DNA of 64,000 nt from Extensimonas perlucida (GTDB lineage Bacteria; Pseudomonadota; Gammaproteobacteria; Burkholderiales; Burkholderiaceae_C): assembly GCF_007655255.1 (NCBI RefSeq), contig NZ_VMYE01000001.1, forward strand, positions 310,001 through 374,000. Direction: 5' to 3'. This document shows positions 13,579 through 22,610 of this stretch, piece by piece (position 1 is the stretch's first letter; each line of letters opens with the position of its first letter). The notes beneath the pieces are model-generated. The model was not told where the DNA came from and did no database searches. It saw only the letters and a list, made by a program, of their open reading frames with translations. The translations under genes and the position numbers were made by a program.

Positions 13579-14724
13579 ATGGCGCACACGCGCTTGCTCG
13601 CCGACATCGGCGGCACCAATATCCGCCTGGCCTGGCAGGCCGGGGCCGGCGACGCCTTGCACGACCTGTGGGTGCGGCCCTGCGCGCAGTTTGCCTCGCT
13701 CGAAGCGGCGATCCGCGCCTATGTGGCCGAGGTGGGCATCTCCGTGCCCGAGGAGGCTGCGCTGGGCATCGCCAACCCCGTGACGGGCGACGCGGTGCGC
13801 ATGACCAACCGCGACTGGAGCTTTTCGCAAAGCGCATTGCACGCGGCGCTGGGGCTGCGGCGGCTCGTCGTGCTCAACGACTTCACGGCGCTCGCGCTTG
13901 CCATTCCATTGCTCACGCCGCAGATGCTGCGCCAGGTCGGCGGCGGCGCGCCGCAAGCGGGGGCGGCCGTGGGGCTGCTCGGGCCGGGCACGGGGCTGGG
14001 CGTGTCGGGGCTGGTGTTTGCGCCCGACGGCAAGGACATCCCTCTCGCAGGCGAGGGCGGTCACGCCACGCTGGCCGCGCAGACGCCGCTCGAATGGGAG
14101 CTGCTGCGCATCCTGCAGCGGCGCTACGGCCACGTATCGGCCGAGCGCGTGCTCAGCGGCCAGGGGCTGGTTGATCTGTACCACGCGCTGCGCGAACACG
14201 CGGGCCTAGGAGCCTGTCGGACTTTGGGCGTCGATAGCGAGAATGCGCCCCGGCGAGGCCAGTTTTTGCCGGATTCGCCGCCCCATAGTGCTGCTATGGG
14301 GCAAGAAGACGGTAAAAAATGGGCCGCTGCGGCGCATTCGCAGCCGACGATTCCAAAGTCCGACAGGCTCCCAGGCGGCGCGGAGGTGACTGAAGCGGCG
14401 CAGGTCACGGCGCTGGCCTTCGATGCGGGTGACGCGCGCGACGCGCTGGCTTTGCAGGCGCTCGAACTGTTTTGCGGCTTTTTGGGTACGGTGGCGGGCG
14501 ATTTGGCGCTCACGCTGGGCGCGCGCGGCGGCATGTATCTGGGCGGCGGCATCGTGCCGCGCCTGGGCACGTGGTTCGAGCAGTCGGGCTTTCGCGCGCG
14601 CTTCGAGGCCAAAGGGCGCTTTCAGGCGTACCTGGCGCCGATTCCCTGCTGGGTCATAGACCCCGACGCGGCCCCGGCACTGTACGGCGCGGCACGCGCG
14701 CTCGATCGGCCGCAGCCGTCTTAG
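13579..14724 (+). CDS. glk: Glucokinase carrying a 55-residue in-frame palindromic-element insert
   Basis: Glk phosphorylates glucose with ATP. The frame shows the ATP-binding [14 protein letters not shown] near the N-terminus, [13 protein letters not shown] with the catalytic Asp, [13 protein letters not shown], the GEGGHATLA motif and a C-terminal GGIVPRLG. The protein is 381 residues, against about 320-335 for the family. The excess is residues 211-265, encoded exactly by a 163-bp palindromic element plus a TA duplication (14209-14371). The insert sits in the variable segment after [12 protein letters not shown], where E. coli Glk has a loop, and both flanks align normally. Without it the protein would be 326 residues. 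No stop or frameshift is present, so the enzyme is probably active. Confidence 0.92.
14209..14371 (+). mobile_element. 163-bp palindromic MITE-like element (family A), in frame within glk
   Basis: The element begins GGAGCCTGTCGGACTTTGG and ends CCAAAGTCCGACAGGCTCC, perfect 19-bp inverted repeats. Left flank is TA (14207-14208) and right flank CA (14372-14373), consistent with a TA target duplication changed by one base. The interior also pairs end to end, around a CCCCATAG...CTATGGGG hairpin at about 14281-14300. The second copy lies in rimM (156 of 163 bases identical). Inserted length with the TA is 165 bp, i.e. 55 codons. The element and TA fit the size and structure of non-autonomous IS630/Tc1-mariner derivatives; that family assignment is inference. 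Confidence 0.9.
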
Positions 14725-21875: not shown

Positions 21876-22610
21876 ATGTCCGCCGCCTTGCCGCTCGATC
21901 TGGTTGACCTGCCCGCCGACGCCGTGGAAGTCGGGCGCATCGCGGACGCGTGGGGTGTGAAGGGCTGGTTCAAGGTGCTGCCCTACAGCGCCGCGCCCGA
22001 GGCCTTGTTTTCGTCCAAGCGCTGGTACTTGCAGCCCGCAGAGCGCGGCGTGCGCGGCTTCGAAGGCACGCGCCTGTTGCGCATCCGCGAGGCCAAGGAG
22101 CACGCGGACACCATCGTCGCCTGGGCGCAGGACATCCCCGACCGCGGCGCTGCCGAAGCCCTGCGCGGCGCGCGCGTCTTCGTGCCGCGCTCGAGCTTCC
22201 CGAGCACCGGCGCCGACGAATACTACTGGGTCGATCTCATCGGCCTGGCCGTGGTCAACCGTGAAGGCGTGGAGCTGGGCGAAGTGCGCGAACTGCTCTC
22301 CACAGGCCCGCAAACCGTGCTCGTGCTGAGCTACCAGCAAGAAGGCAAAGCGCAAGGAGTCGGTCGGACTTTGGGCGTCGAAAGCGAGAATGCGCCCCAG
22401 CGAGGCCAGTTTTTGCCGGATTCGCCGCTCCATAGTGGTGCTATGGGGCAAGAAGACAGTAAAAAATGGGCCGCTGCGGCGCATTCGCAGCCGACGATTC
22501 CAAAGTCCGACAGGCTCCTAGAGCGCATGATTCCCTTCGTCTCGGCCTACGTCGATCGGGTCGATCTCGCGGCGCGGCGCATCTTCGTCGATTGGCAGCC
22601 CGATTACTGA
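21876..22610 (+). CDS. rimM: Ribosome maturation factor RimM carrying a 55-residue in-frame palindromic-element insert
   Basis: RimM assists 30S head assembly and binds S19. Residues to about 115 form the N-terminal RimM domain (VEVGRIADAWGVKGWFKVLPYS). The C-terminal PRC-barrel domain starts near YYWVDLIGLAVVN and ends ERMIPFVSAYVDRVDL...VDWQPDY. At 244 residues it exceeds the usual 170-190. The extra residues 161-215 are encoded exactly by the 163-bp element at 22356-22518 plus a TA duplication, inside the loop before ERMIPF. Removing it restores a normal 189-residue RimM. The frame is intact, so a functional protein with a long loop is likely. Confidence 0.93.
   Translation: MSAALPLDLVDLPADAVEVGRIADAWGVKGWFKVLPYSAAPEALFSSKRWYLQPAERGVRGFEGTRLLRIREAKEHADTIVAWAQDIPDRGAAEALRGARVFVPRSSFPSTGADEYYWVDLIGLAVVNREGVELGEVRELLSTGPQTVLVLSYQQEGKAQGVGRTLGVESENAPQRGQFLPDSPLHSGAMGQEDSKKWAAAAHSQPTIPKSDRLLERMIPFVSAYVDRVDLAARRIFVDWQPDY
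22356..22518 (+). mobile_element. 163-bp palindromic MITE-like element (family A), in frame within rimM
   Basis: This is the second copy of the glk element, same length, same orientation and same reading frame. The right end, CCAAAGTCCGACAGGCTCC, is intact. The left end differs at two bases (GGAGTCGGTCGGACTTTGG). Flanks are AA on the left and TA on the right, consistent with TA duplication and one mutation. There are seven differences from the glk copy: A/V, C/G, D/E, R/Q, P/L, A/G and G/S in translation, with no silent ones. The pre-insertion codons would read GCG CTA GAG. Confidence 0.9.

Follow-up and report, generated by a model that had tools for sequence, protein, structure and literature searches.

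A 64,000-nucleotide stretch of the genome of Extensimonas perlucida (contig NZ_VMYE01000001.1, positions 310,001 to 374,000; hereafter the window) contains a glucokinase gene, glk, whose reading frame runs through a segment with the inverted ends of a mobile element. What is this segment, how did it enter the gene of a conserved enzyme, and how is it carried there? The first-pass annotation, made from the sequence alone, described a palindromic element of 163 bp that had duplicated a TA target in the manner of mariner-type MITEs and resembled the in-frame palindromic elements of Rickettsia. Here we follow that proposal through three Extensimonas genomes.

The glk insert and its family

The glk frame is open over its full length, straight across the insert, and the claim of a mobile palindrome lying in frame within the gene proved real: the 18-base end occurs 4 times in the window against 0.05 expected, and the element strand folds end to end with a predicted energy of -131.9 kcal/mol (none of 200 shuffles as good; z = -13), far above chance on both counts. 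Element and one CTAG copy together make up 165 bp, or 55 codons, corresponding to residues 211-265 of Glk, precisely the residues originally named. The initial figure of 165 bp for the whole insertion likewise stands, but the element proper is a core of 161 rather than 163 bp (Table 1), with terminal inverted repeats identical over 18 bases and, counted further outwards (14204-14227 and 14353-14376), inverted ends of 24 nt that are 96% complementary. The wording 'palindromic throughout' is right for the end-to-end fold but not base for base, since only 86 of 161 positions match the element's own reverse complement without gaps, making it an imperfect palindrome; and the core has four open frames out of six, two per strand, instead of the three first counted (two forward, one reverse).

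Table 1. Features of the glk and rimM loci, in window coordinates
Feature	Position	Strand	Remark
glk, glucokinase	13579..14724	+	381 aa including the insert; TIGR00749 spans residues 6-372
Left copy of the target duplication, CTAG	14206..14209	.	
Palindromic non-autonomous element (IS1182-type MITE), 161 bp	14210..14370	+	
Left terminal inverted repeat, GAGCCTGTCGGACTTTGG	14210..14227	+	
Right terminal inverted repeat	14353..14370	-	
Right copy of the target duplication, now CCAG	14371..14374	.	
rimM with in-frame copy, residues 161-215	21876..22610	+	PRC-barrel match ends at the insert; empty site GCGCTAGAGCG in sister species
Further copy of the element, in frame in rimM and flanked by CAAG / CTAG	22357..22517	+	

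The segment is absent from glk in both sister species, Extensimonas vulgaris and Extensimonas sp. H3M7-6 (E. soli; PMC11936349), each of which represents the empty site and again yields a net difference of 165 bp, and it is absent from all nine further Glk relatives aligned; it is thus no ancestral part of the enzyme. Over 130 bases at the insertion region of the glk locus, E. vulgaris corresponds to genome G002 and H3M7-6 to G001, with E. perlucida as G000. Among the matches listed, the E. perlucida genome has a single Glk gene, the remaining matches being copies of the element. AlphaFold gives pLDDT <50 in Glk for one segment alone, residues 213-266, and its predicted structure aligns with that of E. 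coli Glk (1q18) at a TM-score of 0.85 by target length; on this prediction, the insert is most readily pictured as a disordered loop added to an otherwise intact Glk fold.

Throughout the 3.58-Mb E. perlucida genome, the 16-base end with at most two mismatches gave 119 + 116 matches, against 0 + 1 for the reversed control, and these 235 ends correspond to roughly 115 copies of the element. The 18-base end is about equally frequent in the three Extensimonas genomes (113 + 115 in E. perlucida, 95 + 99 and 112 + 116 in the other two). Fetched stretches of E. perlucida contained 93 full copies, a sample collected with exact patterns and through resemblance to the glk copy, of which 86 are exactly 161 bp long; many of the sister-genome copies, also a sample, were picked through the peptide of the open frame. 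Between 1 and 7 positions separate each of the 29 copies aligned first from their consensus. All gene counts rest on full copies, with the 20 partial BLAST pieces excluded.

Several copies have a different structure. Two are longer variants of ~180-182 bp with a common extra stretch of ~21 bp (L031 and L038), and three are short forms with an internal deletion (L032, L060 and L090). The halves of one further copy lie near the ends of contigs C4 and C10 (L045 and L053), and look as though another insertion sequence, with a putative 9-bp duplication, GCACCACTA, had separated them, which may explain the contig break. The only Rfam match to the element had an E-value of 0.93, far under the gathering score; a distant-mode search of plasmid sequences returned no match, nor did a narrow query of viral contigs with a 24-base exact pattern. 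Identity with REPs, units of 20-40 bp with a GTAG or CGTC tag (PMC3733652), was rejected, the unit here being 161 bp.

Copies inside genes and the reading frame

Location in genes was defined by a codon score trained on the window rather than by annotation. By this measure, 25 of the 93 full copies are read through, the frame having a coding score to the left and to the right of the insert, and 23 of these 25 are read in one and the same frame, yielding nearly the same mostly polar 55-residue peptide; four weaker read-through cases, including rimM, EarP and the start of tsaD, were kept outside the 25. The first-pass suggestion of a betaproteobacterial host with Rickettsia-like insertion behaviour is thus borne out for the genus Extensimonas, with many further copies in frame in genes and others between genes.

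For 17 of the 25 hosts, one family model either spans the insert or matches in at least two stretches (the best stretch alone being displayed, except for MurD and PdxA, where both sides are). These hosts are glucokinase, MurD, Mpl, PdxA, SerB, PepN, CysN, a CorC-type protein, a CoA ligase, a YbaL-type transporter, a Sua5 C-terminal domain, an MFS carrier, a pirin, a transaminase, a HAD hydrolase, a DUF2944 protein and a nitronate monooxygenase. Six more have a family match on one side of the insert or separate flanking domains (L058, L065, L064, L054, L018 and L009), and no family was matched by the remaining two, L030 and L004. MurD is encoded by one gene above the cut-off in the genome, and this gene bears the insert, with MurD pieces on both sides in a single open frame and the sister-species MurD aligning to both; PdxA has a second, weaker homologue. 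At four loci (L016, L050, L066 and L074), the boundary CTAG is placed such that its TAG would terminate the upstream gene, and a further coding frame follows. The tsaD frame has a copy at its 5' end (L037, with sister counterparts L165 and L156), which may extend the N-terminus or precede the true start.

Because 161 bp and a 4-bp duplication add up to 165 bp, a multiple of three, insertion keeps the frame. Within genes, CTAG can be read as CTA-G or nCT-AGn, the third phase being a stop, and in the consensus element each of these phases leaves one orientation open while the other meets a TAG in the hairpin loop, so that half of the in-frame insertions would be open by chance. We applied a uniform rule, by which both 300-bp flanks had to score best in the same continuing frame with a score >8. 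Among 172 unique copies from the three genomes, 36 were open and 4 had a stop (P = 9e-8 against one half), orthologous insertions being counted per genome in this figure; the single-genome result is therefore safer, with 20 open and 3 stopped in E. perlucida (P = 2.4e-4). Other flank lengths gave 32 to 0 (150 bp) and 34 to 1 (240 bp). Among the 93 E. perlucida copies, the 300-bp flanks were clearly coding on neither side in 20, on one side only in 36, on both sides but on opposite strands in 8, and on both sides and the same strand in 29; the last group comprised 19 in-frame copies without a stop, 3 with one, and 7 copies out of frame. The copy in the nitronate monooxygenase gene is read in the frame that usually carries the TAG, where its codon gives W.

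The coding stretches examined offer 8 CTA-G and 3 nCT-AGn sites per 58,935 codons, and this supply may explain the preference for one frame, as the observed bias of 32:2 compared with 8:3 gave a Fisher P of 0.085.

The 18-base end was found in 110 of 299 genomes of the bacterial family, mostly with one or two matches, about the level of the reversed control, and in a few with many. Element classes there measure 162 bp (G166), 266 bp (G103, G205, G233 and G174) and 42-47 bp (G233, G063 and G251); the smallest, examined at L218, L219, L259, L260 and L263 in other genera, are barely more than two inverted ends with CTAG or near-CTAG flanks. Outside Extensimonas, 26 elements were examined, one of which (200 bp, L252) is an overlapping chance pair, and they include two open and one stopped case in genes. 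In this small sample, the heavy load in genes looks particular to Extensimonas.

Is the element itself adapted to coding sequence? Its length of 3n minus 4, its open frame and its polar peptide could be adaptations for living in genes, and at least six further genera of the family do have relatives of 161 bp with CTAG or near-CTAG flanks, the same frame being free of stops in 8 of 9 sequences compared. Among distinct variants of 173 copies, however, the host frame showed no shortage of stops or amino-acid changes (4 stops among 96 singleton variants, 3.2 expected), and substitutions in the relatives from other genera are spread evenly over the three codon positions. An apparent depletion of stops in pooled counts (0 of 267 changed codons in genes, 4 of 797 outside) came from shared variants counted several times and vanished with distinct or singleton variants. 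The lengths of 161 and 266 bp, which with 4 bp duplicated are both multiples of three, suggest a rule, but the 162-, 157-, 46- and 42-bp classes break it, and only 3 of the 26 elements outside Extensimonas lie in genes. We therefore regard selection of the element for compatibility with coding as unlikely.

Less likely still is a co-option of the peptide in some hosts, for instance as a linker or regulatory loop. Insertions common to two species, as in pdxA, mpl, a transaminase and the DUF2944 gene, and to more in the case of the tsaD start, would be compatible with such a role, but the differences between orthologous in-gene copies mostly change amino acids, with synonymous to nonsynonymous ratios of 1:6 (transaminase), 0:10 (DUF2944), 1:4 (mpl) and 2:3 (tsaD), near the neutral expectation of about one quarter synonymous, and glk of both sister species does without the insert. 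The insert is probably a neutral passenger.

Target site and the probable IS1182 partner

We assembled 37 candidate empty sites and excluded 10 with poor flanks or gaps, both glk comparisons among them, leaving 27 pairs. The net gain was one element plus 4 bp in 25 of these pairs, and CTAG stands on both sides of 61 of the 93 full copies. The duplication is thus the 4-bp CTAG and not the TA assumed at first. In the empty relative, CTAG itself is present at 8 of the 27 sites, such as rimM, and the other 19 differ from it. Ordinary CTAG sites, examined as a control, were kept in 29 of 91 comparisons between species, whereas the corresponding figures for the same species are 223 of 257 with TCGA and 152 of 189 with GATC. 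The fraction of 8 in 27 is close to that of ordinary CTAG sites, indicating that the element inserts into CTAG rather than carrying it. This control also disposes of the possibility, raised by the 19 sites lacking CTAG, that the element brings its own CTAG and overwrites 4 bp of target.

CTAG sites turn over fast in Extensimonas genomes. The motif is rare in genes, with 11 occurrences in 58,935 codons of the window and the fetched loci, and it disappears between species much more quickly than other 4-base palindromes do. Two pairs of head-to-tail copies share a single CTAG (L067, C23:1635-1966; L086, C47:17937-18270), as expected if a flanking CTAG is reused.

The 19 empty sites without CTAG could also be read as replacement of a target hairpin rather than insertion with duplication, the mode proposed for IS1272, which belongs to the same transposase family (PMC5678879). 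Replacement is highly improbable here: at 25 of 27 sites nothing was lost, the flanks of 165 sites show no excess of inverted-repeat context, and the missing CTAGs are accounted for by fast turnover. An artefact of assembly or contamination, conceivable for a draft of 50 contigs with a contamination estimate of 2.12%, can be dismissed, as the family is present in three genomes, two of which match named public records, and orthologous insertions are shared among them.

A search of the three genomes for DDE_Tnp_1 transposases gave 14 matches. At 4 of these loci, one in E. perlucida (L273), two in G001 and one in G002 (the sister loci being L269, L271 and L272), the first 15 bases of GAGCCTGTCGGACTTTGG, with G or C as base 1, stand at both termini and are flanked by CTAG. 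Each of the four loci reads CTAG, 15-base end, transposase gene, inverted end, CTAG; the transposase of L273 is an intact frame of 457 residues that scores 370 bits against the IS1182 model NF033551 (cut-off 270) and carries the DUF772 (PF05598), PF01609 and DDE_Tnp_1_6 (PF13751) domains. A complete IS1182-family insertion sequence with the ends of the element and CTAG flanks is present in each of the three genomes. None of the 10 loci with rve-type transposases has paired element ends, and the mariner-type origin first suggested gives way to the IS1182 family as the one whose ends match. At L271 and L272, a 161-bp copy abuts the insertion sequence, with a single CTAG common to both. The sequence shared by the two is confined to the ends, amounting to 19 bases including CTAG and, for the sister copies of the insertion sequence, as many as 30 bases at 83%, and no inner homology between the insertion sequence and the 161-bp element was found, so that mobilisation in trans is deduced from ends and target. 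Judged by these sequences, the element is most plausibly a MITE mobilised by IS1182: it is short, lacks a transposase gene, has inverted ends, many copies and a target duplication, and shares its ends with an autonomous element. The family is a real, young and high-copy one of IS1182-type MITEs in a betaproteobacterial genus, and it behaves like the Rickettsia palindromic elements (RPEs).

Taken together, an IS1182-type MITE that inserts into CTAG and adds 165 bp each time, with selection leaving the open-frame copies and a 55-residue peptide carried as a neutral passenger, is in our estimation the best explanation, with a probability of about 0.9. An IS1182-family transposase would act in trans on the terminal repeats and move the 161-bp element into CTAG, each insertion duplicating 4 bp and so lengthening the site by 165 bp. 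About half of the insertions into genes would keep the frame open, there being one open orientation per CTAG phase, and selection after insertion would remove most of those that close it. The outcome would be proteins, the sole MurD among them, with a mostly polar insert of 55 residues, modelled in Glk as a disordered loop. The insertion sequence identified here presumably moved the element, and the insert-bearing proteins are probably made and working.

Relation to known systems

Most work on palindromic elements lying in frame within genes concerns Rickettsia, which are hard to grow, and no transposase is known for the RPEs. In Extensimonas, similar behaviour comes with high copy number; sister species offer the empty sites, the genome itself encodes a candidate transposase, and the genus has cultured type strains, E. 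vulgaris and E. soli (PMC11936349). Two old questions hence become testable, namely how such elements enter genes and how conserved enzymes tolerate the sudden insertion of 55 residues. There is a caution here as well: an insert that breaks up a domain in one of these genomes can stem from mobile DNA instead of being a lineage-specific protein domain. A bolder idea, which we hold to be doubtful but worth stating, is that this MITE lineage is a protein-tolerated parasite, whose length, open frame and polar, disordered peptide open up the conserved domains of housekeeping enzymes, such that genes would be its main habitat and not a hazard. If true, this would hold for some host enzymes without a second copy, and in a bacterium whose way of life is not that of a parasite such as Rickettsia.

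No published description of the Extensimonas family was found in a search of the titles and abstracts of the open-licence literature. A close parallel, one of behaviour, is with the RPEs, of which ten families are described; R. conorii has 44 integrations, and nearly half of these can form translational fusions (PMC10969869). RPEs are also palindromic, ~150 bp long, present in many copies and in frame in unrelated metabolic genes. The Extensimonas element differs from them in its host class and in that a CTAG target and an IS1182 partner have been identified here. With IS1272 of Staphylococcus, an IS1182-family member reported to replace hairpin targets without duplication (PMC5678879), it has the transposase family in common, but CTAG is duplicated in Extensimonas. 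MITEPye1 of Paracoccus yeei (PMC11578231) is likewise non-autonomous, with IS1182-like 18-bp ends, 4-bp direct repeats and an RNA hairpin; however, it is reported at 1-3 copies per chromosome, preferentially between genes, whereas the Extensimonas element reaches ~115 copies, with about a quarter of those examined in genes and in frame. Finally, the enterobacterial RU-1 (127 bp), RU-2 and RU-3 are MITE-like units of 103-168 bp with open frames fused to genes, and Delihas reported no RU inside the conserved domains of superfamily proteins (PMC2759123); the Extensimonas inserts, in contrast, interrupt the conserved domains of Glk, MurD, PdxA, PepN and others.
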